Positions 24,746-37,631 are shown, counted from the first letter of the stretch. The stretch is 64,000 nucleotides of DNA from OCS116 cluster bacterium AG-435-F03 (GCA_003212795.1 QCOV01000001.1:215321-279320); one strand, 5' to 3'. Translations and numbers: made by a program. Notes: generated by a model not told the origin, from the letters alone.

Positions 24746-25504
24746 ATGTCTAGATTTAAAGATAAATTTGCAATTATTTCTGGCGGAGCATCTGGAATGG
24801 GCGCTGCAACAGCAAAAAGATTTGTTGAGGAAGGTGGATCAGTTGTAACGCTGGATTTAAATGAAGAACTAGGAATTAAGGTTGCTGAAGATATCGGCGA
24901 TTCTTGTGAGTTTTTTAAGGCAGATGTATCTAAAGCAGAGGACTGGGATAGACTCGAAAAACATCTTGGTGAAAGATTTACCAAAATAACTTCAGTTGTT
25001 AATGCTGCAGGAATTAGTGAACCGGCAACAGTAGAAGACGAGACAGTTGAGCATTGGGATAGGGTGCATGCTATAAATGGAACTTCAGTTTTTTTAGGCT
25101 GTCAATTTGCTGTTAAAGCAATGAAGGATGGTGAAGGAACGATAGTAAATTTTGCATCTTCTCTAGCTACAAGACCAAAACCATTTGTGATAGCTTATAA
25201 TTATAGTAAAGCAGGAGTTTTGGTATTAACTAGAACTGTTGCGCTTCATTGTGCTGAAATGGGTTACAAAATAAGATGTAATGCCGTTCAACCTGGAGCT
25301 ATTAATACTCCTATGATGCAAAGATATGTTCAAGCGGCTGAAAATTCTGAGCAACAACTTTCCGAATTTGCTGCGTCTCATCCCATGAATAGAGTTGGTG
25401 AACCAGAAGAAGTAGTAAATGCAGTATTATTTTTATCTTCTGAAGACTCAGCATTTACAACGGGCGATTCAATTTCTGTTGACGGTGGGGTGATTGCTAT
25501 ATAA
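24746..25504 (+). CDS. SDR family oxidoreductase, first gene of a catabolic run
   Basis: A classical 252-aa short-chain dehydrogenase: SGGASGMGAATAKRF near residues 12-26, VVNAAGISEP near 90, the catalytic YNYSK segment, and a C-terminal TTGDSISVDGG typical of FabG/cyclohexanol-dehydrogenase-like SDRs. A role converting an alcohol to the ketone oxidised by the next gene product is inferred from position: a Baeyer-Villiger monooxygenase begins 36 bases downstream. It has a strong AAGGAG site. The true substrate is unknown. Confidence 0.86.
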   Translation: MSRFKDKFAIISGGASGMGAATAKRFVEEGGSVVTLDLNEELGIKVAEDIGDSCEFFKADVSKAEDWDRLEKHLGERFTKITSVVNAAGISEPATVEDETVEHWDRVHAINGTSVFLGCQFAVKAMKDGEGTIVNFASSLATRPKPFVIAYNYSKAGVLVLTRTVALHCAEMGYKIRCNAVQPGAINTPMMQRYVQAAENSEQQLSEFAASHPMNRVGEPEEVVNAVLFLSSEDSAFTTGDSISVDGGVIAI

Positions 25505-25540
25505 TTGTTAATACATTGAAATTAAACAATTTAGGTTAAA

Positions 25541-26998
25541 ATGACTGAAAAATTAGATGTTTTAGTAGTTGGTGCAGGTATTTCAGGAATTGGCGCTGGA
25601 TATCACCTGCAAAATAAATGCCCTGATGCAAAATTTGTTATCCTCGAAGGAAGAGATAAAATAGGTGGTACATGGGATTTATTTAAATATCCTGGTATCA
25701 GATCTGATTCAGATATGTATACTTTAGGGTTTAATTTTAAGCCTTGGAAAGAGCAAGAGGCTATTGCAGATGCTCCTTCAATTTTGAAATATTTAAATGA
25801 GACTGTAGAAGAATTTAATTTAAAAAATAAAATAAGATTCGGAAAATATGTAAAAAAGGCAAATTGGTCTAGTTCGACTAATTCCTGGACAGTTGATGTG
25901 GAGGATAAATCTACTGGAGAATTATCCCAAATTTCTTGTAATTTTATATTTATGTGCTCTGGTTATTATAGTTACAAAGAAGGTTACACACCTCAATTTG
26001 ATGGAATAGAGAACTTCAATGGGGATGTTATTCATCCACAAAAATGGGATGAAAACTTTGATTATTCTAACAAAAAAATAGTTGTTATTGGAAGTGGAGC
26101 TACAGCCGTAACAATTGTTCCAGAAATGGCTAAGAAAGCTGAGCATGTAACTATGCTTCAAAGATCTCCTACCTATGTTGTCGCTGCACCAGAAAAAGAT
26201 AAATTAGCAAATAATTTGAGAAAATATATGCCGCTGAAGTTAGCTTATTTGCTTATCAGATGGAGAAATATTTTAAGACAACAGTATTACTTTCGCCTTT
26301 GTAAAAAATATCCAAATGGCGTTAAGAACGCTATTATTCGAGAGGCAAAAAAGAGGCTTGGTTCAGATTTTGATGTAAAAACTCATTTTACCCCAAATTA
26401 TAATCCATGGGATCAAAGAATGTGCCTTGTGCCAGACGGAGATCTTTTTGAACAAATTAAAAAAGGGAAAGCTTCTGTAGTAACAGATCATATTAAAAAT
26501 ATTACTGAAAGCGGAATATTATTAAACTCAGGTAAAGAGTTAAAGGCAGATGTAATTGTTACTGCTACAGGCTTAAATTTGGAAATGTTAAGTAATGTTG
26601 ATTTTGTAGTTGATAATAATACTATAGATATATCGAAGACGGTTACATATAAAGGTATGATGTATAGTGGAGTACCTAATCTAGCTAGTACATTTGGATA
26701 TACTAATGCTTCCTGGACACTTGGTGCTGATTTAACTTCAGAATATGTCTGTAGAATAATTAATCATATGAAGAAAAATCAATATGATGTAGTTTGCCCT
26801 CAGTCGAATGATGAAATTGAAACGGATCCTGATTATCTAAACCTCTCTTCAGGGTATATTAAAAGATCATTAGATATATTTCCACAGCAAGGAAAAAAAG
26901 CGCCGTGGAGAAATAATCAAAATTTCTTAAAAGATGTTTTCCAAATTAGATACGGTCGTATTGATGATGGAGAAATTTTCTTTTCAAAAAATTCTTAA
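25541..26998 (+). CDS. Flavin-containing Baeyer-Villiger monooxygenase
   Basis: A 485-aa FAD/NADPH monooxygenase. The first Rossmann motif is VVGAGISGIGAG (residues 9-20), the second is VVIGSGATA (181-189), and between them lies FNGDVIHPQKWD at 159-170, matching the type I Baeyer-Villiger fingerprint FxGxxxHxxxW(P/D). Such enzymes insert oxygen next to a carbonyl, turning ketones into esters or lactones. GGTWDLFKYPGIRSDSDMY is the usual flavin-loop region. An SDR precedes it and an esterase-type hydrolase follows two genes later, which fits a ketone-to-ester-to-acid route. Substrate range cannot be predicted. Confidence 0.88.
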   Translation: MTEKLDVLVVGAGISGIGAGYHLQNKCPDAKFVILEGRDKIGGTWDLFKYPGIRSDSDMYTLGFNFKPWKEQEAIADAPSILKYLNETVEEFNLKNKIRFGKYVKKANWSSSTNSWTVDVEDKSTGELSQISCNFIFMCSGYYSYKEGYTPQFDGIENFNGDVIHPQKWDENFDYSNKKIVVIGSGATAVTIVPEMAKKAEHVTMLQRSPTYVVAAPEKDKLANNLRKYMPLKLAYLLIRWRNILRQQYYFRLCKKYPNGVKNAIIREAKKRLGSDFDVKTHFTPNYNPWDQRMCLVPDGDLFEQIKKGKASVVTDHIKNITESGILLNSGKELKADVIVTATGLNLEMLSNVDFVVDNNTIDISKTVTYKGMMYSGVPNLASTFGYTNASWTLGADLTSEYVCRIINHMKKNQYDVVCPQSNDEIETDPDYLNLSSGYIKRSLDIFPQQGKKAPWRNNQNFLKDVFQIRYGRIDDGEIFFSKNS

Positions 26999-27021
26999 TT
27001 TAGTTTTCCGGAGAATAAATC

Positions 27022-28155
27022 ATGCAATCAAAAATATGTGAAATATTAGATATAGAGTTTCCTTTATTAGCGTTTTCTCATTGTCGTGATGTGGTTGTAG
27101 CTGTTTCAAAAGCTGGAGGCATGGGTGTTTTCGGAGCAGTTAACCTTCCGCCTGATAGACTTGAGGAAGAATTAAATTGGATAGATGATCATATTGATGG
27201 AAAGCCATACGGAATTGATTTAATTGTACCAAATAAATATGAAGGTAAAGGAAAAGAAGTAAAGTCAGAAGATATTATTAAAGCAGTTCCACAAGAGCAC
27301 AAAACTTTTGCAAATTCGATTCTTGAATCTCATGATATTGAAGTTGAGGAAACGGATGAAGTAAGAAAAGGTACAATTCAATTTGGTAGAAATTTATCCG
27401 AAGAGGGAGCTGAAAGTACATTAGAAGTTGCTATGAATCATCCAATAAAACTTATTGCCAATGCTTTAGGCGTTCCTCCAAAAATAATGCTAGATCTTGG
27501 CAAAAAACATAATATAGCTGTTGCTGCATTAGTTGGCGCAAAAGAACATGCTATTAAACAAGTTGAAGCGGGAGTTGATATATTGGTTGTTGCAGGTGGA
27601 GAAGCAGGTGGGCATTGTGGCGATGTTTCAACAATGGTTTTAGTGCCCGAAGTTTATAATGCTGTAAAAAAAATTAAAGATGTACCAATTTTAGCTGCAG
27701 GAGGAATAACTACAGGTAGCCAAATGGCTGCTGCAATGACTATGGGAGCAGATGGTGCTTGGTGTGGCTCAGTATGGTTAACAACTTCCGAAGCTGAAAC
27801 TAATCCAGTGGTAAAAGAAAAAATGTTGGCTGCTTCTTCACGTGATACCGTCCGATCAAGAAGTAGAACAGGTAAGTTTTCTAGACAATTAAGATCACCA
27901 TGGACAGATGCTTGGGAAAATGAAGGACCAGAACCACTTCCAATGCCTCTTCAATCTCTAGTTAGTGAACCAGCTCTTAGAAAGATTGATAAGCTATCTC
28001 AAGGAGGTCACGAAGGAGCAAAGCAATTAGCTACTTACTGGGTAGGACAAGGAGTTGGTCTTATGAATCATTCATTATCTGCTGGAACGGTAGTACAAAA
28101 TTTCAAAGAAGATTTTGCAGAAGCCTTAGAAAGATTAAATAATTATTTTGAATAA
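27022..28155 (+). CDS. Nitronate monooxygenase / NMO-like FMN oxidoreductase
   Basis: A 377-aa TIM-barrel flavoprotein of the 2-nitropropane dioxygenase family. AGGMGVFGA is near the N-terminus, VAGGEAGGHCGDVSTMV carries the conserved His, and AAGGITTGSQMAAAMTMGADGAWCGSVW forms the FMN-phosphate site. The family oxidises nitronates, but many members in catabolic clusters act on other substrates, including enoyl-CoA-like compounds. It has a GGAG site and follows the Baeyer-Villiger gene by 23 bases, so it belongs to the same run. Confidence 0.84.
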   Translation: MQSKICEILDIEFPLLAFSHCRDVVVAVSKAGGMGVFGAVNLPPDRLEEELNWIDDHIDGKPYGIDLIVPNKYEGKGKEVKSEDIIKAVPQEHKTFANSILESHDIEVEETDEVRKGTIQFGRNLSEEGAESTLEVAMNHPIKLIANALGVPPKIMLDLGKKHNIAVAALVGAKEHAIKQVEAGVDILVVAGGEAGGHCGDVSTMVLVPEVYNAVKKIKDVPILAAGGITTGSQMAAAMTMGADGAWCGSVWLTTSEAETNPVVKEKMLAASSRDTVRSRSRTGKFSRQLRSPWTDAWENEGPEPLPMPLQSLVSEPALRKIDKLSQGGHEGAKQLATYWVGQGVGLMNHSLSAGTVVQNFKEDFAEALERLNNYFE

Positions 28156-28169
28156 TTAAGAAATTCTCT

Positions 28170-29093
28170 ATGAAAAAAACAATGATCACTCTTTCAGTTA
28201 TAGTTATTTGTATAGTAATTTTTTTCGGTTATCTCGCTATAACAAAACCAAATAAAATGCCTTTTATTGGCCATTTTTTTGATAAAACTGTATACGGATC
28301 TTTATATTATTTTAATAGACCAGATCAAACTCACATATACTCAACAAAAGATAAAATAGAATTAAAATTATATGTATTTAACCCTGTAGATAAAAAATCT
28401 GAATCTAGCGTTTTACTATTTCATGGTGGCGGTTGGTCTTTTGGATCTTCATATTCATTATTTAAAATTTGCAGAGATATTTCAAATAACGGAATAACTT
28501 GTATCAGTGCTGATTATAGGTTGGCGTTAAAACATAATTCGAATGTTATAGACTCTATGAGTGATGCAAGAGATGCATATAAATGGGTACTAGAAAACTC
28601 AGAAAAATTAAAAATCAATAAAAACCATATAATGGTTGGTGGTGGTTCATCGGGAGGACATCTTGCTGCATCTTTAGTAATGGTGCCTTATGATGATAAT
28701 AAAATTATAGAAAATATAAGAGCGCTTATATTTTTTAATCCAGCACTAAATACAACTTTTTTTGATAGCGGATTTGAGTTACCAAAAAATACTAGTGAAA
28801 GAAGAATGAAATTCTGGTTTTTTTTAAAAAAGCTTTTTGAAGGAAGATCAATAGAATTATCACCTTCAAGTTATGTAAGAGAAAATCTTCCCCCTTCAAT
28901 TATCTTTCATGGCACTAATGATCGGACAATACCTATTTCAATAATAGAGGACTTTACAGATGATATGAAATCTAAAGGTAATGACATTATTCTCTCAAAA
29001 TGGAAAGGTAAGGGGCATCAATTTTACAGATGGGATAAAGAAGTTTATCCAGATGTAATTAAAGAAGTAGTAAAATTTATAAAGGATAATTAA
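28170..29093 (+). CDS. Alpha/beta hydrolase, hormone-sensitive-lipase-like, membrane-anchored
   Basis: A 307-aa esterase or lipase. Residues about 5-24 are a hydrophobic anchor or signal segment (ITLSVIVICIVIFFGYLAI). The oxyanion-hole motif FHGGGWSFGS is near residue 88, the nucleophile serine is in GGGSSGGHLAASL, and the acid and base are probably Asp in HGTNDRTIP and His in GKGHQFYRW. In this context it could cleave the ester formed by the Baeyer-Villiger enzyme, acting at the periplasmic side of the membrane. It directly abuts the DUF1295 gene. Confidence 0.83.
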   Translation: MKKTMITLSVIVICIVIFFGYLAITKPNKMPFIGHFFDKTVYGSLYYFNRPDQTHIYSTKDKIELKLYVFNPVDKKSESSVLLFHGGGWSFGSSYSLFKICRDISNNGITCISADYRLALKHNSNVIDSMSDARDAYKWVLENSEKLKINKNHIMVGGGSSGGHLAASLVMVPYDDNKIIENIRALIFFNPALNTTFFDSGFELPKNTSERRMKFWFFLKKLFEGRSIELSPSSYVRENLPPSIIFHGTNDRTIPISIIEDFTDDMKSKGNDIILSKWKGKGHQFYRWDKEVYPDVIKEVVKFIKDN

Positions 29094-29966
29094 ATGCCAT
29101 TAAGAACATCAATCTCAGGGACAATAATATCTATAATTATAGGTATTTTAATAACATTAGGTGTAAGTCAAAATAGTATAGACTTTTATGGTGTTCCTCT
29201 TATTGCTGTATGTTTTCTTTATTCATACATTATCCATTGGATTTTTTTTATTCATGGATATTTATTTCAAACCGAACATTATTTTGATGCAATAGGAAGC
29301 TTTACATTTGTTAGTCTATCATTTTTTCTTATTTTTACTGTTCAAGATTTTTACGCTTTTCTTATTTGTTCTTTAGTTGCTATTTGGTCTTTAAGGCTTG
29401 GCTCCTTTTTATTTAATCGCGTAAAAAAAACTGGAAGGGATACTCGTTTTACAGAAATGAAAAAGAACTTCTTCTGGTTTTTTCTAACATGGAATTTATC
29501 TGCATTATGGGTTTATCTTAGTTATGTAGCTGGAATGGTAGCTGTTACAAGTAAGCATTCAAGTGAATTAACTATTACTGAGTATATATTTTGTTTTTTT
29601 GGTTTTTTGGTCTGGTTAGCTGGTTTTATAATTGAAGTAGCAGCAGATCATCAAAAGAAAAAGTTTAAAGAAGATTTAAATAACAAAGATAAATTTATCT
29701 CACACGGTTTGTGGGCCTGGTCAAGACACCCTAATTATTTTGGTGAAATACTTCTTTGGATAGGTATTACTATTATTGCTATTCCAATTTTTAAAAATTG
29801 GGATTATTTAGCGTTAATTTCACCAATATTTATTTATTATCTTTTAGTAAATGTTAGCGGTATACCAATGCTTGAAAAAGCCGCAGATCAAAAGTGGGGG
29901 AATAATGAGGATTATATTTCTTATAAAGATAGAACTAATATTTTATTTCTCAAGAAACCTGATTAA
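29094..29966 (+). CDS. DUF1295 / steroid 5-alpha-reductase-like membrane protein
   Basis: A 290-aa polytopic membrane protein with seven or so hydrophobic segments. The C-terminal SHGLWAWSRHPNYFGEILLWIG is the hallmark of DUF1295 and of the related steroid 5-alpha-reductase and isoprenylcysteine methyltransferase families, and DGT-type steroid reduction is one known role of the superfamily. Its ATG follows the hydrolase stop directly. It ends the plus-strand run, four bases from the convergent MFS gene. The reaction is not known for most bacterial members. Confidence 0.82.
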   Translation: MPLRTSISGTIISIIIGILITLGVSQNSIDFYGVPLIAVCFLYSYIIHWIFFIHGYLFQTEHYFDAIGSFTFVSLSFFLIFTVQDFYAFLICSLVAIWSLRLGSFLFNRVKKTGRDTRFTEMKKNFFWFFLTWNLSALWVYLSYVAGMVAVTSKHSSELTITEYIFCFFGFLVWLAGFIIEVAADHQKKKFKEDLNNKDKFISHGLWAWSRHPNYFGEILLWIGITIIAIPIFKNWDYLALISPIFIYYLLVNVSGIPMLEKAADQKWGNNEDYISYKDRTNILFLKKPD

Positions 29967-29969
29967 AAC

Positions 29970-31241
29970 TTACTCTGTAACAAGATCATTTTTAAGATAT
30001 TTACCGGCTAAATAGTAGTGATATGCGCACCATAACTTTAATGTTGTGAGTATCATTAGACTGTATCTTAATGACTCCTTTCCATAATCGGCTCTTAAAA
30101 TATCACTAAGTATTCCAACGGCTTGAGGTCCAAAACCCAAGCCTATGATATTGATAATAAACAATAAAATAGCAGCAGCAACTGATCGCATTCTTAACTC
30201 AACAACCCCTTGAGTTTGACTAAAGGTTGTTGCTTGGTAGAAATTACCAAAGGCGATAGGCACTATTAACCATAAGAATGAAATATTTGCTGTCGGGCTT
30301 AGGTAAACCATATAATACAAAGGAGTTGTAATAAACATAGCCAAAGCTACTATCCATAAACACCATCTTACATCTTTTGATCCTAAGTAATCTGATAAAT
30401 AGCCACCTAAAAAAATACCTAGGCCACCAGGTATGCCTAGTATTAAACCAAGATACCAACCAACATCACCTGTTTGCATTCCGTATGATCTTTGAAAGAA
30501 AGAAGGAAGCCATGTTATTGCTCCGTAACCTACAAAAGCAGCAAGAGAAGCGCCAAAAGCAAGATGTCTAAATGATTTTTTACTTAAGAGATATTTTGCA
30601 GTCTCTATTATACTTGGTTGTTCTTTAGTATCCGCTCTTCCTTCAGCTTGACCTCTCTTAGGTTCTTGAACAGTAAAACGAAATATAATTGCCAATAGAA
30701 TACCAGGAATGCCAACAACAAAGAAGGCTATTCGCCAGCCAAAATATTCATTTATCCATCCCCCAGCAAATAAGCCAAACATAATTCCGAATGGAATTCC
30801 TAGTGAATATATACCTAATGCAGTAGATCTGACATTTGCAGGAAAATAGTCTGATATCATAGAGTGGGCAGGGGGACTGCAACCAGCTTCGCCTATACCA
30901 ACTCCAATTCTAGCAATTAATAAGTGGAAAAAATTTTGAGCAAGTCCAGAAAGAGCTGTCATAAAACTCCAGACACCAATTGCAAGTGAAATTAGGTTCC
31001 TTCTATTTCCATAATCAGCATATTTGGCTATCGGAATACCAAGTGTAGCGTAAAATAACGCAAAAGCGAAACCCGTTAACATGCCAAGAGATGTATCTGA
31101 TAAATTTAAATCATTTTTGATAGACTCTAAAAGAATCGATAAAATTTGACGATCAATAAAATTAAATGTGTAAACGACAACAAGTATGCCTAAAACATAA
31201 TTCCTTAAGCTGTTTGATGGGTTTTCAGTTAATGATGACAT
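29970..31241 (-). CDS. MFS transporter, Spinster-like family
   Basis: A 423-aa, twelve-helix transporter. The N-terminus NFIDRQILSILLESIKNDL, the loop AKYADYGNRRNLI (MFS motif A) and the GIGEAGCSPPAHSMISDYFP segment are typical of the Spinster branch, common near aromatic and terpenoid catabolic genes in alphaproteobacteria. It faces the SDR/Baeyer-Villiger run and may import its substrate or export a product; this is inference from position. It is downstream of hsp20, but a strong terminator lies between them, so it needs its own promoter. Confidence 0.87.
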   Translation of the reverse strand: MSSLTENPSNSLRNYVLGILVVVYTFNFIDRQILSILLESIKNDLNLSDTSLGMLTGFAFALFYATLGIPIAKYADYGNRRNLISLAIGVWSFMTALSGLAQNFFHLLIARIGVGIGEAGCSPPAHSMISDYFPANVRSTALGIYSLGIPFGIMFGLFAGGWINEYFGWRIAFFVVGIPGILLAIIFRFTVQEPKRGQAEGRADTKEQPSIIETAKYLLSKKSFRHLAFGASLAAFVGYGAITWLPSFFQRSYGMQTGDVGWYLGLILGIPGGLGIFLGGYLSDYLGSKDVRWCLWIVALAMFITTPLYYMVYLSPTANISFLWLIVPIAFGNFYQATTFSQTQGVVELRMRSVAAAILLFIINIIGLGFGPQAVGILSDILRADYGKESLRYSLMILTTLKLWCAYHYYLAGKYLKNDLVTE

Positions 31242-31898: not shown

Positions 31899-33071
31899 CT
31901 ATAGAATTGGCGGTTTTTTAATGTTTTCATCTATAAAAAAATCTACATATTTATGAAAGTATTGGTTGCCTCTTTCGTTTTTTCCAAAAATAACATTCTC
32001 TTTTGAGTTGGAATCTAAACCTCTTTGAATTTCTAATCCTAGAGCATAATCTTCATCATTAACTACATCTCTTAAGAAGTTCATAAAATGATCTAGTTCC
32101 GCTTTATCTTCTTCATTTTTTGGTGTCTCAGGCGCAACATAATGTAAAATCGTCGTATTTTTATCAGGAGTATTACCAGGTAAGATTTGAGCTATTTGAC
32201 CAATTCCAAGTCCGAGGGAAATTGAAATATTAGGGAATAATGTTCTTACAAAATCTACTCCAGCCCCTTCTTTTTTCCACCATTCATTTTTTGGTAAATC
32301 ATGTATTTCATCAATATTTGTTGATGCAAAAGCGATTCTAAGATGAGGTCCAAATGATGAAAAATCCATAATACCTTGTTGTGTCATAGGCAGAATTGAT
32401 TCTTTATGAGCAGTTGAAAAATGATAACCTTCTAAATATCCGTCGAAGGCTATTTTCCAATTTGCACCATGAATGATTTTAAAGCCATGATAATGCCAGT
32501 CTTGAAGCTTGAAATGCTCTATCTCAGATTTCATACCCCCAAGAAATTCATCTAAATTTAATTCTAAATTAGGAGTTAAGGTCACAAAAATCATTCCGCC
32601 AAATTCTTCACAAGGTAAAACCTGCAGTCCATTACAACTTTTATCGAGTTCACCAAATTTATCATTTTCTAGAATACCAATCAGATCACCTTGATTTGAA
32701 TAAGTCCATCCATGATATGGGCATGTAAATCTATTTTTATTTCCAATTTCTTCACCTGCTAAAGGAGCACCACGATGTGAGCATACATTTCTAAAAGCAT
32801 GAACCTTTGACTCTTTGTCTCTAGTTATTAGAACTGGTATCCCAACAACTTCCATACTTTTGTAGTCACCTTTATTCGGTATTTCAATTGATAATGCCAA
32901 CATTAGAGGTAATTCTTTAAATATTTTATTTATTTCAGAATTCCATCTTTTTTTGCATGTATAATCTGATGTAGGAATTGAAAGTATATTTTCAGCTTGG
33001 TCAGTAGTATTATTCTCTACATGACCAACAACTCTTTCTGCTATTTGATTATACTCTTCTTTTCTATCCAT
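31899..33071 (-). CDS. Rieske 2Fe-2S aromatic-ring-type oxygenase, alpha subunit
   Basis: A 390-aa oxygenase component. The Rieske cluster ligands are Cys97-x-His99 (CSHRGAPL) and Cys117-x2-His120 (CPYHGW). The catalytic iron site is shown by His217 and His222 in EGYHFSTAHKES, with an Asp near residue 352 (VVNDEDY) as likely third ligand. No ferredoxin, reductase or beta subunit is adjacent, so electrons must come from a partner elsewhere. It is divergent from the acyl-CoA dehydrogenase operon, with a shared 199-base control region. Related enzymes hydroxylate aromatics, sterols or demethylate; the substrate here is unknown. Confidence 0.9.
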   Translation of the reverse strand: MDRKEEYNQIAERVVGHVENNTTDQAENILSIPTSDYTCKKRWNSEINKIFKELPLMLALSIEIPNKGDYKSMEVVGIPVLITRDKESKVHAFRNVCSHRGAPLAGEEIGNKNRFTCPYHGWTYSNQGDLIGILENDKFGELDKSCNGLQVLPCEEFGGMIFVTLTPNLELNLDEFLGGMKSEIEHFKLQDWHYHGFKIIHGANWKIAFDGYLEGYHFSTAHKESILPMTQQGIMDFSSFGPHLRIAFASTNIDEIHDLPKNEWWKKEGAGVDFVRTLFPNISISLGLGIGQIAQILPGNTPDKNTTILHYVAPETPKNEEDKAELDHFMNFLRDVVNDEDYALGLEIQRGLDSNSKENVIFGKNERGNQYFHKYVDFFIDENIKKPPIL

Positions 33072-33270: not shown

Positions 33271-34467
33271 ATGGATCTAGCATTTACAAAAGAAGATGAG
33301 AATTTTCGTCAAGAGGTAAAAGATTTTATAAATAAGAACTTTCCTCAAAAATTAAAAGATATTGATAAAAGAACTGATTTAACAAGAGAGGATATGCTCT
33401 CTTGGCATAAAGTTTTATATAAAAAAGGTTGGATTGCACCTCAATGGCCAGAAGAATATGGTGGAACAGGTTGGAATATTACTCAGAGATATATTTGGGA
33501 TCAAGAATGCGCTAATGCAGGCACAACTCCATTAATTCCTTTTGGTTTAACTATGCTTGGTCCGGTTATAATTGGCTTTGGAAATGAAGATCAAAAGGAT
33601 TGGGTCCTAAAAGGTATTTTATCAGGAAATGATTGGTGGTGTCAGGGTTATTCAGAATCTGGAGCAGGATCTGACCTAGCAAGCTTAAGAACTAAAGCAG
33701 AAAAAGTTGGAGATCATTATATTGTTAATGGGCACAAGACATGGACAACATTAGCTCAATTTGCTGATTGGATGTTCTGTTTAGTAAGAACAAAGAATGA
33801 TGGAAAGCCTCAAGAGGGTATATCATTTCTTTTAATTGATATGAAAACTGATGGAATTGATGTTAAACCAATTATTACTTTAGATGGTGGGCATGAAGTT
33901 AATGAAGTTTTTTTAGAAGATGTAAAAGTTCCAGCAGAAAATCTTGTTGGAGAAGAAAATATGGGATGGACAATTGCAAAATTTTTATTAGGTAATGAGC
34001 GTACAGGAATTGCTGGCGTAGCAAGATCTAAAAAAGCGGTAGAACGCCTCAAAGATATAGCCTCTTCTGAATATATAGATGGTGAAAATTTAATTAATGA
34101 TTCAGATTTTAATTCAAAAATCGCCGATCTTGAGGTTGATTTAACTGCTCTTGAATATACAGAATTAAGGACTTTAGCAAAAGAAAGTAAAGGTGAAGGA
34201 CCAGGCGCTGAATCTTCAATACTTAAAATTAAAGGAACCGAGATTCAGCAAAGAATTACAGAATTAACCATGGAAGCAGTGGGTCATTACTCTAACCCAT
34301 ATCTAACTCCTGCTTTTGAGAGACAAGGATCTAATTATTTAACAATTGGTCCTGATTATAGCCATGGTGTTGCACAAAATTATTTTAATACAAGAAAAAC
34401 TTCCATTTATGGCGGATCAAATGAAATTCAAAAAAATATTATCGCCAAGATGGTGTTAGGGTTATAG
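33271..34467 (+). CDS. Acyl-CoA dehydrogenase, large/alpha-type subunit
   Basis: A 398-aa ACAD. WWCQGYSESGAGSDLASLRTKA is the flavin-contact region, WTTLAQFADW follows, and the C-terminus is RKTSIYGGSNEIQKNIIAKMVLGL, cut here at its core YGGSNEIQ. This ending, with Gly where YEG enzymes have Glu, is found in PimC-like and FadE26/FadE28-like subunits that pair with a smaller partner. The next gene encodes such a partner 10 bases downstream. It opens a four-gene operon, and substrates are probably bulky or branched acyl-CoAs. Confidence 0.89.
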   Translation: MDLAFTKEDENFRQEVKDFINKNFPQKLKDIDKRTDLTREDMLSWHKVLYKKGWIAPQWPEEYGGTGWNITQRYIWDQECANAGTTPLIPFGLTMLGPVIIGFGNEDQKDWVLKGILSGNDWWCQGYSESGAGSDLASLRTKAEKVGDHYIVNGHKTWTTLAQFADWMFCLVRTKNDGKPQEGISFLLIDMKTDGIDVKPIITLDGGHEVNEVFLEDVKVPAENLVGEENMGWTIAKFLLGNERTGIAGVARSKKAVERLKDIASSEYIDGENLINDSDFNSKIADLEVDLTALEYTELRTLAKESKGEGPGAESSILKIKGTEIQQRITELTMEAVGHYSNPYLTPAFERQGSNYLTIGPDYSHGVAQNYFNTRKTSIYGGSNEIQKNIIAKMVLGL

Positions 34468-34476
34468 GAGGTAACA

Positions 34477-35604
34477 ATGGATTTTTCTTTTAGTGAAGAA
34501 CAAACTTTATTGAGGAATACAATACAGTCTTTTATTCAAGACAATTATGATTTTGATAAAAGGCAGGCAATAGTTAAGTCTGAAGAAGGAATGAAACAAG
34601 AAAATTGGAAACAATTTGCTGAACTTGGTCTGCTAGGCCTACCTTTTTCGGAAGAAGATGGCGGATTAAATTTTGGATCTGTTGAAACAATGATTGTTGC
34701 TGAGGAATTTGGAAAAGGTTTAGTTGTAGAGCCATATATACAAACCGTTGTGACATGCGGAGGATTTTTAAGAAGAGCAAGTGCAAGTATAAAAGAAAAA
34801 TATATTCCTGGGATTATCTCAGGAGAGGATATTTGGGCTTTTGCATATGCTGAACCACAAGGGCGTTATAATTTAAATGATCTGACTACTACAGCTACAT
34901 TAGATGGTGATCATTATATTATTAATGGTTACAAATCAGTTGTATCTGGTGGCCCATGGGCAAATAAATTTATTGTTTCAGTTAGAACATCAGGTGATCA
35001 AAGAGACTCTGATGGAATATCAGTTCTTATTGTTGATAAAAATTCAGAAGGCTTATCAATTAGAGATTATCCAACTGTTGATGGAAGTAGGGCGTCAGAA
35101 ATAACATTAGAAAATGTATCTGTTTCTAAAGATGAGTTAATTGGGGAAGAAGGTAAAGGAGCTGAATTAATCGAATTAATAGTTGATGAAACTATTGCTG
35201 CTATTTGCTCAGAAGCTATAGGCGCAATGAAAGTTTTGAATGATGCTACAGTAGAATATTGCAAAACTAGAAAACAATTTGGTCAACCTATTGGTAAATT
35301 TCAAGTTCTTCAACATCGTATGGTCGATATGTTCATGCAATATGAACAAAGTGTATCTATGACTTATATGGTAAATTTAAAATTGGACGAAGAATACGCT
35401 GAAAGAAGAAAAGCAGCATCAGGAGCTAAAGTTCAAATTGCTAAAGCTGCTAAATTTATAGGCCAAAGTGCTGTTCAACTGCATGGTGGTATGGGAATGA
35501 CAGACGAATTAAATGTTGGGCATTATTTTAAAAGATTATCTATGATCGAAAACTCCTATGGTAATATTGATCATCATTTAAAAAAATATTCTTCTGCCGG
35601 GTAA
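34477..35604 (+). CDS. Acyl-CoA dehydrogenase, small/beta-type subunit
   Basis: A 375-aa ACAD with a shortened C-terminus. It has EEFGKGLVVEPYIQTVV, the FAYAEPQGRYNLND loop, CKTRKQFGQPIGKFQVLQHRMVDM and HGGMGMTDELNVGHYFKRL, but no YEGT or YGGS motif at the end (the protein finishes soon after NSYGNIDHH). This is the pattern of PimD-like and FadE27/FadE29-like partners in heterotetrameric ACADs. It lies between two large-type subunits in the operon and may serve both. GGAGG precedes its ATG. Confidence 0.87.
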   Translation: MDFSFSEEQTLLRNTIQSFIQDNYDFDKRQAIVKSEEGMKQENWKQFAELGLLGLPFSEEDGGLNFGSVETMIVAEEFGKGLVVEPYIQTVVTCGGFLRRASASIKEKYIPGIISGEDIWAFAYAEPQGRYNLNDLTTTATLDGDHYIINGYKSVVSGGPWANKFIVSVRTSGDQRDSDGISVLIVDKNSEGLSIRDYPTVDGSRASEITLENVSVSKDELIGEEGKGAELIELIVDETIAAICSEAIGAMKVLNDATVEYCKTRKQFGQPIGKFQVLQHRMVDMFMQYEQSVSMTYMVNLKLDEEYAERRKAASGAKVQIAKAAKFIGQSAVQLHGGMGMTDELNVGHYFKRLSMIENSYGNIDHHLKKYSSAG

Positions 35605-35610
35605 AATAAT

Positions 35611-36411
35611 ATGAATGAATGGTTAAAATTTGAAAAAAGTGGCTCTATTGGAACATTAAAACTTAATAGACCAGATATAAGAAACCCCCTTGGCGAACCT
35701 GAAGATGCAGAAAATTTTGAAGAAGCTCGTGATTTAATCAATAATGATAGAGATATAAGATGTGTAATTCTTACTGGAGAGGGATCAGCCTTTTCTGCTG
35801 GTGGAAATGTCAAAAATATGAAGGAAAAAAAAGGTAATTTTTCTGGGTCTTCTGTGGCTCTAAGAGAGAGATATCGATATGGTATCCACAGAATAATAAG
35901 AGCTGTATGGAGTATTGAGGTTCCTGTAATTGCCGCAATAAATGGACCTGCGATTGGTTTAGGTAATGATGTAGCATGTCTTGCAGATATAAGGATAGCA
36001 TCAGAAAAGGCCAAATTTGGCGTTACTTTTTTAAAGATTGGATTGATCCCAGGTGATGGTGGAGCTTGGTTGTTGCCAAAAATAATAGGTTTTTCGAAAG
36101 CAGCTGAACTACTTTATACCGGTAAAATTATTAATCCTGAAACAGCTAAAGAATGGGGTTTGATTAGCGAGATATCAAAACATGAATCATTAATGGAAGA
36201 TGCTAATGCGCTTGCTTTAGAAATTGTAAAACAACCACCTGATGCATTAAGGATGGCTAAAAAACTTCTTAGAGAAGGAATTACAAATAGCTTCGATACC
36301 GTACTTGAGATGTCAGCAAATATGCAAGCTTTGATGCATTTAACTGAAGATCATCAAGAGGCGTTGTCAGCATTTTTTGAAAAAAGAGATGGAAATTTCA
36401 AAGGTAAATAG
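35611..36411 (+). CDS. Crotonase (enoyl-CoA hydratase/isomerase) family protein, atypical active site
   Basis: A 266-aa crotonase fold. The oxyanion-hole strands are AFSAGGNVKNMK and NGPAIGLGNDVACLAD, and KIGLIPGDGGAWLLPKIIG resembles isomerase-like members such as PaaG. Against classical hydratases, the first catalytic Glu is replaced (N-D-V where C-E-L is usual) and the second falls on Phe in FLKIGLIPG. It may be an isomerase, hydrolase or lyase rather than a hydratase. It sits seven bases after one ACAD gene and nine before the next, clearly in the same operon. Confidence 0.84.
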   Translation: MNEWLKFEKSGSIGTLKLNRPDIRNPLGEPEDAENFEEARDLINNDRDIRCVILTGEGSAFSAGGNVKNMKEKKGNFSGSSVALRERYRYGIHRIIRAVWSIEVPVIAAINGPAIGLGNDVACLADIRIASEKAKFGVTFLKIGLIPGDGGAWLLPKIIGFSKAAELLYTGKIINPETAKEWGLISEISKHESLMEDANALALEIVKQPPDALRMAKKLLREGITNSFDTVLEMSANMQALMHLTEDHQEALSAFFEKRDGNFKGK

Positions 36412-36419
36412 GAGAAATC

Positions 36420-37631
36420 ATGCAATTAGGTTTTAAAGAAGAAGATATAAAATTTAGAGATGAAGTAAGAAGTTTTATTAAAGAAACCTTTACAGATGAT
36501 ATGAGAAAAACTTTATCACTATCAAAAAACGGTCATGCTGGAAAAGATCTTCATGTAAAATGGCAAAAATCTTTATATGAACGAGGATGGATGGCACCAA
36601 ATTGGCCAGAGCAGTATGGCGGTGCAGGTTTTACTTCAACCCAAAAGTATATTTTTGAATCAGAAATGGCTCGTGAAGGGGCGCCGAGAACCATACCGTT
36701 TGGATTATCGATGGTTGCACCTGTTATTATGGAATTTGGTTCTCAAGAACAAAAGGATAAATTTCTTCCTGATATTCTTGAGAGCAATGTCTGGTGGTGC
36801 CAAGGTTATTCAGAACCTGGCTCTGGCTCTGATTTAGCTTCATTACAATGTAAGGCAGAAAATCAAGGTGATCATTATTTAGTTAATGGAACAAAGATTT
36901 GGACCACTATGGCTCAGTATGCTGATTGGATTTTTTGTTTAGTTCGAACCTCAAAAACAGAAAAACCCCAAGAAGGGATATCTTTCTTGTTAATTGATAT
37001 GAAGTCTCCTGGTATTGAAGTAAGGCCTTTAATAACACTTGATAATAGTCCAGAACCACATCAAGAAGTTAATCAAGTTTTTTTTGAAGATGTAAAAGTT
37101 CCAATAGAGAATTTAATTGGTGAAGAAAATAAAGGTTGGACATATGCTAAGTACTTACTTGAGTTTGAAAGAGGAACTGCATACTCACCAGGGTTATATA
37201 GAGGCATAAAGAATTTAAAAGATATAGCTAGAGATACATCTATTGGTGATGGCTTAACTTTATTAGATGATAATGATTTTCTAAATAAGATTAATGAATG
37301 TGAAATTCAAATTCAAGCTATGGAGTTTGTAGAACTTAGGATTTTTTCAGCTCTATCTGCTGGACAAAGGGTAGGTCCAGAATCCTCGATTTTAAAAACT
37401 AGAGGTACTGAGATAGGTCAATATTTACAAGAACTGGCAGTTGAGGCTATAGGTTATTGGTCCCATCCATTTGTAGAAGATACTTTTGCGAATGTTAATG
37501 AACCAAGTATTGGGCCAGATTATGCTGCAACGATCACTCCCGAATATTATAACGGAAGAAAAACAACTATTTATGCTGGTTCAAATGAGATTCAAAGAAA
37601 CATTATTTCTAAAGCTGTACTTGGATTATAA
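36420..37631 (+). CDS. Acyl-CoA dehydrogenase, second large/alpha-type subunit
   Basis: A 403-aa ACAD closely similar in layout to the first gene of the operon: WWCQGYSEPGSGSDLASLQCKA, WTTMAQYADW, a long VNQVFFEDVKVPIENLIGEEN segment, and the ending YAGSNEIQRNII. YAGSNEIQ replaces the YEG motif of stand-alone enzymes, so a partner subunit is expected. With only one small-type gene present, the operon has an alpha, beta, crotonase, alpha' order. An AGGAG site precedes the ATG at 36420. Confidence 0.88.
   Translation: MQLGFKEEDIKFRDEVRSFIKETFTDDMRKTLSLSKNGHAGKDLHVKWQKSLYERGWMAPNWPEQYGGAGFTSTQKYIFESEMAREGAPRTIPFGLSMVAPVIMEFGSQEQKDKFLPDILESNVWWCQGYSEPGSGSDLASLQCKAENQGDHYLVNGTKIWTTMAQYADWIFCLVRTSKTEKPQEGISFLLIDMKSPGIEVRPLITLDNSPEPHQEVNQVFFEDVKVPIENLIGEENKGWTYAKYLLEFERGTAYSPGLYRGIKNLKDIARDTSIGDGLTLLDDNDFLNKINECEIQIQAMEFVELRIFSALSAGQRVGPESSILKTRGTEIGQYLQELAVEAIGYWSHPFVEDTFANVNEPSIGPDYAATITPEYYNGRKTTIYAGSNEIQRNIISKAVLGL

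Follow-up and report, generated by a model that had tools for sequence, protein, structure and literature searches.

The window analysed here comprises 64,000 nucleotides from the 1.44 Mb genome of a marine alphaproteobacterium of the PS1 clade (OCS116), and contains five closely packed genes on the plus strand that face a sixth. In order, they are predicted to encode a 252 aa SDR (24746-25504; Pfam adh_short_C2, 5e-57); a 485 aa type I Baeyer-Villiger monooxygenase (BVMO) of the short kind (25541-26998; FMO-like, 5e-18); a 377 aa FMN flavoprotein of the NMO/FabK superfamily (27022-28155; NMO, 2e-45) with the motif GGEAGGHCG; a membrane-anchored HSL-type esterase (28170-29093; BD-FAE/Abhydrolase_3, ~1e-24); and a 290 aa DUF1295 integral membrane protein (29094-29966; DUF1295, 2e-56) carrying the motif GLWAWSRHPNYFGEI. 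Successive genes are separated by 36, 23, 14 and 0 bp. The sixth gene, encoding a Spinster-type MFS transporter (29970-31241, minus strand; MFS_1, 4e-50), is convergent with the DUF1295 gene at a distance of 3 bp. Adjoining the transporter is a GbcA-like Rieske oxygenase gene (31899-33071) that only some PS1 genomes carry at this place, and beyond it a plus-strand block (33271-37631) encodes a PimC-like and a PimD-like acyl-CoA dehydrogenase, a crotonase and another PimC-like acyl-CoA dehydrogenase, in that order. A first-pass annotation of this DNA had listed six ORFs between 24746 and 31241, with which our ORF coordinates, order, strands and Pfam matches agree; its classes (SDR, type I BVMO, NMO-type flavoprotein, membrane-anchored esterase, DUF1295 membrane protein, Spinster-type transporter) are likewise borne out by these matches and by the motifs and solved relatives described below.

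Motifs and nearest relatives of the encoded proteins

The BVMO fingerprint FNGDVIHPQKWD occupies residues 159-170 (consensus FxGxxxHxxxW[P/D]), between two Rossmann motifs, GAGISG at 11 and GSGATA at 184. A second BVMO motif, GGTWDLFKYPGIRSD, begins at 42 (consensus [AG]GxWxxxx[FY]P[GM]xxxD; GGTW), and its core is invariant in 15 relatives, as is Arg293 (PWDQR), the candidate for the catalytic arginine of the C-terminal half, which in a profile alignment to OTEMO falls one column off the AKR arginine. Alignment to the solved OTEMO, phenylacetone, cyclohexanone and steroid monooxygenases covers mainly residues 3-217. An Acinetobacter baumannii homologue that resembles AlmA is 49% identical over residues 1-485, and mycobacterial homologues are 54-56% identical; we also liken the protein to EthA. 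By its motifs the gene encodes a type I BVMO, probably of the short, AlmA/EthA-like kind, with a predicted ketone-to-ester activity. AlmA itself converts 2-decanone and 2-dodecanone to acetate esters (PMC12388405), and acetate-ester formation from 2-ketones is also credited to it in PMC12449030 (citing Yin 2024).

A PDB sequence search places the SDR nearest to the SDR oxidoreductase 8yai, to R-specific alcohol dehydrogenases and to 3-alpha/20-beta- or 3-beta/17-beta-hydroxysteroid dehydrogenases, and it is probably an NAD(P)-dependent secondary-alcohol dehydrogenase. The esterase has the features of the HSL family (HGGG at 85, GGSSG at 158, Asp251 within HGTND, and a histidine in GKGHQ), preceded by a single hydrophobic helix at residues 1-28, and matches the solved esterases 5ao9/7bfn at 5e-42. 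The best solved match of the transporter (5e-77) is 6e8j, which we take to be a bacterial Spns homologue, followed by SPNS1/SPNS2 at ~1e-22. For the DUF1295 protein, a weak Pfam Steroid_dh match (9e-6) hints at a distant relationship to the steroid 5-alpha-reductase/ICMT superfamily; its predicted structure is a poor model (pLDDT 69) that gave no meaningful fold match in the PDB.

The NMO-like protein scores better against FabK and the putative nitroalkane dioxygenase 3bo9 (~1e-35) than against the PA1024 nitronate monooxygenase (3e-16), and no NCBIfam equivalog scored above its cut-off. On these grounds we rejected a nitronate monooxygenase in the strict sense. Its closest orthologues outside the clade (76-77% identity) are in three other alphaproteobacterial genomes: at two of these loci (L129 and L131) the gene is clustered with genes for an AtuA-type protein (confirmed by Pfam in L131, called by sequence likeness in L129), an acyl-CoA carboxylase, an acyl-CoA dehydrogenase, a crotonase and a biotin carboxylase, and at the third (L130), which lies on a short contig, the neighbouring genes are similar. 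Because its nearest outside relatives sit in such AtuA-type clusters, the protein is more likely to act on acyl-CoA than on nitronates, that is, as an acyl-CoA enoyl reductase/dehydrogenase rather than a nitronate monooxygenase, and these neighbourhoods point to chemistry on acyl-CoA and hint at branched or isoprenoid substrates. The likeness to Atu (acyclic terpene utilisation) clusters lies in their containing these nearest orthologues; the difference is that in PS1 the NMO gene adjoins a BVMO gene and AtuA was absent from every PS1 genome except G007, so the terpene clue is indirect.

Remoter relatives (60-64% identity) lie beside genes for a CoA ligase, a thiolase-like protein and a crotonase, sometimes with another FMO-like protein. 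At five loci (L133-L137) the NMO-like protein is conserved together with an AMP-dependent CoA ligase, a TLP1-type thiolase-like protein and a crotonase, joined in L135 and L136 by an additional FMO-like protein; this cluster looks like an undescribed acyl-CoA pathway.

Gene linkage within and outside the PS1 clade

Among 18 PS1 genomes from three genera (g1, g2 and g3), 15 carry the BVMO gene, in each case adjoining the NMO gene, which itself occurs in 16. The BVMO, NMO, esterase, DUF1295 and transporter genes occur together wherever PS1 assemblies span the locus, and even the remotest genus keeps the order BVMO-NMO-esterase-DUF1295-(MFS), with identities of ~53-83%. As a control we compared 26 further matched genes, including purD, xseA, the replicative helicase and fatty-acid synthesis genes, and found them equally ordered: 31 consecutive window genes are collinear in one genome (G017; rpiA, purD, xseA, replicative helicase and fab among them), 38 kb rightwards from the BVMO is collinear in the distant genus, and the acyl-CoA dehydrogenase/crotonase block is also collinear across PS1. 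Linkage within PS1 is weak evidence for a pathway because the housekeeping flanks are just as collinear, and, given this 38 kb of general collinearity, we discarded the argument that a set kept together in relatives must be one.

The sole break near the cluster falls between the SDR and the BVMO, which adjoin in g1 and g2 only; in g3 the SDR gene (75-81% identity) lies ~6-8 kb upstream and inverted. At two g3 loci (L040:1454-9939 and L143:5885-12308) the SDR is accompanied just upstream of the BVMO by a MAPEG protein, a zinc-type NADPH reductase and a second SDR. Apparent co-loss of the genes in G009 and G011 was considered as a sign that they form a unit and rejected in favour of assembly gaps, since the G011 contig breaks off within the adjoining acyl-CoA dehydrogenase gene and no orthologous anchor was found in G009; contig ends explain, or could explain, the absences in all PS1 genomes missing the BVMO or the NMO gene.

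Outside PS1 the set breaks up. In a survey of 289 alphaproteobacterial genomes, PS1 members included, BVMO relatives (E <1e-130) were found in 51 and NMO relatives (E <1e-70) in 17, while esterase orthologues (E <1e-40) were confined to four genomes, all PS1, and DUF1295 orthologues (E <1e-40) to five, of which only G161 lies outside the clade, its match not being near its BVMO. The flanks examined at the non-PS1 BVMO loci (L046-L112), at most 10 kb long and often shorter, yielded neither an NMO relative nor one of DUF1295, and within the same survey and flanks the full gene set was not found outside PS1. On present evidence the exact set is therefore restricted to PS1, because the esterase and DUF1295 orthologues are nearly confined to the clade and the non-PS1 BVMO flanks lack the NMO and DUF1295 genes. 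BVMO relatives do co-occur in 10 of the 13 non-PS1 genomes that have an NMO relative, compared with 47 of all 285 (Fisher p 1e-6, uncorrected for genome size or kinship), which is only a hint that the association is meaningful in other alphaproteobacteria. The first-pass annotation had proposed judging the set by whether its genes stay together in relatives: they do so in PS1, uninformatively given the equally collinear flanks, and outside PS1 the five genes scatter.

The link between BVMO and esterase, by contrast with the full set, recurs. An esterase of the same family as that in the window adjoins the BVMO on the same strand in L047 (24 bp) and L065 (~39 bp before the matched start), and lies nearby in L046 (202 bp) and L048 (1.1 kb); these four loci include the closest non-PS1 BVMOs. 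Plasmid pMP1 of Deinococcus radiodurans encodes an 834 aa natural fusion in which an HSL-type esterase domain of that family (residues 85-324 of the ORF) precedes an AlmA/EthA-like BVMO, and on a Streptomyces plasmid a BVMO homologue overlaps an alpha/beta hydrolase gene, with a CoA ligase gene and one for a 3-hydroxyacyl-CoA dehydrogenase alongside. Esterases are nevertheless a minority beside non-PS1 BVMOs, which counts against the operon reading favoured below: among the 83 adjacent ORFs, three matched Abhydrolase_3 and two Abhydrolase_1 in a mixed Pfam tally with no dominant partner, and one BVMO-adjacent esterase also matched Pfam 'steryl acetyl hydrolase'. The recurring adjacency and the fusion give the BVMO-esterase core independent support outside the clade. 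PimC/PimD-like acyl-CoA dehydrogenase relatives also occur near the BVMO in other alphaproteobacteria (L176-L179), which is suggestive only because such enzymes are common. The D. radiodurans fusion (L154:1433-3934, DRO_RS15280) is annotated merely as an alpha/beta hydrolase.

Comparison with known systems and proposed route

Several known systems share parts of this set. AlmA of Acinetobacter, which functions in long-chain ketone metabolism and was compared through the A. baumannii homologue that resembles it, is the same short kind of BVMO with the same fingerprint, but that homologue adjoins rplQ and an acyl-CoA dehydrogenase gene and lacks SDR, esterase, NMO and DUF1295 neighbours. The mymA operon of Mycobacterium tuberculosis encodes the flavin monooxygenase MymA, the hydrolase LipR, an SDR, a zinc alcohol dehydrogenase and FadD13; it likewise combines a BVMO-type flavoprotein with an SDR and a hydrolase of the HSL type, but also has a CoA ligase and the zinc alcohol dehydrogenase, and is not known to include NMO or DUF1295. 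In the acetone pathway of Gordonia sp. TY-5, AcmA and AcmB (a BVMO and an esterase) convert a ketone to alcohol and acid, the same pairing as in the PS1 set, although this BVMO belongs to another subgroup and is not known to be accompanied by NMO, DUF1295 or a Spinster transporter. For marine SAR202, an alicyclic-ketone route has been proposed in which an SDR, a Baeyer-Villiger enzyme and an esterase act in turn (PMC5395668); the step order, also in ocean bacteria, is the one considered here, whereas the SAR202 monooxygenases are type II and FMN-dependent and that of PS1 is type I and FAD-dependent. The pdc cluster of Caenibius tardaugens cleaves progesterone, again through BVMO-led conversion of ketone to ester, but its four genes include a luciferase-like monooxygenase and two regulators, with no esterase, NMO or DUF1295 gene (PMC12239570). 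The gene set is real and its core is ordinary, known chemistry; its composition is unusual through NMO and DUF1295, and the suggestion that the exact set is uncharacterised stands, no description of it having been found in the literature searched.

The explanation we favour, to which we would give about an even chance, is a catabolic operon that cleaves a secondary alcohol or ketone derived from lipids or isoprenoids by a subterminal Baeyer-Villiger reaction. The Spinster-type carrier would take an amphipathic substrate through the inner membrane; oxidation of a secondary alcohol to the ketone would fall to the SDR; the AlmA/EthA-type BVMO would insert oxygen beside the carbonyl to give an ester; and the membrane-anchored esterase would release alcohol and acid, the latter passing as a CoA thioester to the PimC/PimD-like acyl-CoA dehydrogenases and the crotonase encoded next door, so that the block at 33271-37631, past the end of the interval first annotated, may belong to the same route. 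The NMO-superfamily flavoprotein would probably serve as an FMN enoyl reductase/dehydrogenase acting on acyl-CoA double bonds, and the DUF1295 protein probably as a membrane NAD(P)H-dependent reductase of double bonds in the uncleaved lipid. We infer the substrates, reactions and roles, above all those of the NMO-like and DUF1295 proteins, from the observed protein identities, motifs, gene packing, clade-wide linkage and BVMO-esterase linkage elsewhere. The earlier idea of a coherent route from SDR through BVMO to esterase holds in its enzyme classes, its chemical order and the BVMO-esterase link, and is weakened at its first step by the SDR's place not being kept in g3.

The main chemical rival is steroid or sterol side-chain cleavage, in which a 20-keto or similar steroid would be imported and converted by the BVMO to an acetate ester from which the esterase frees the alcohol, with the SDR acting later as a hydroxysteroid dehydrogenase, the DUF1295 protein reducing a double bond in a ring, and an acyl-CoA derived from ring or side chain going to the PimC/D-like pair of acyl-CoA dehydrogenases. 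The hydroxysteroid dehydrogenases (3-alpha/20-beta, 3-beta/17-beta) near the SDR suit this proposal, but plain R-specific alcohol dehydrogenases match the SDR equally well; the weak Steroid_dh match of DUF1295, the 'steryl acetyl hydrolase' match in one BVMO-adjacent esterase and the progesterone-cleaving BVMO of C. tardaugens (PMC12239570) also fit, set against a BVMO no closer to the PDB steroid monooxygenase than to the phenylacetone or OTEMO monooxygenases and the absence of steroid-ring genes from the annotated parts of the window. We consider this route quite unlikely.

Absence of any pathway, with functionally independent genes adjacent merely through the strongly conserved gene order of PS1, would account for the collinearity between genera, housekeeping genes included, and for the lack of linkage as a set outside PS1; co-directional packing with gaps of 0-36 bp, the finding of BVMO and esterase side by side or fused in unrelated bacteria, and the chemically ordered gene content argue against it, and we regard it as unlikely. 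Detoxification or S/N-oxidation, in which thioethers, thioamides or amines would be the main substrates of the BVMO, much as prodrugs are oxidised by EthA, and the other genes would encode unrelated modifying enzymes, draws on the likeness to EthA and on the promiscuity of BVMOs as S-oxidisers. It seems improbable, since an esterase beside or fused to AlmA/EthA-like BVMOs points to ester products and characterised AlmA makes esters from ketones.

A bolder form of the ketone-cleaving operon, which we hold to be doubtful, is a PS1-specific ocean pathway in which the NMO/FabK-superfamily flavoenzyme and a membrane reductase of the DUF1295 family serve the BVMO as dedicated partners; the substrates could be, for example, unsaturated ketones of isoprenoid or sterol-like type from marine dissolved organic matter. 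If true, two families of which little is understood would acquire a role in catabolism. Since few dispensable genes survive in streamlined genomes, retention of a ketone-cleaving operon would hint that surface seawater steadily supplies ketones derived from lipids or terpenoids. PS1 would thereby gain an assignable carbon source, and the FabK-like 'NMO' and DUF1295 proteins a testable role.

Two more BVMO-like proteins are encoded in the source genome (G000:C3:45238-46557 and G000:C1:646415-647068, in frames of 517 and 535 aa), making BVMO-like proteins numerous for a genome of its size.
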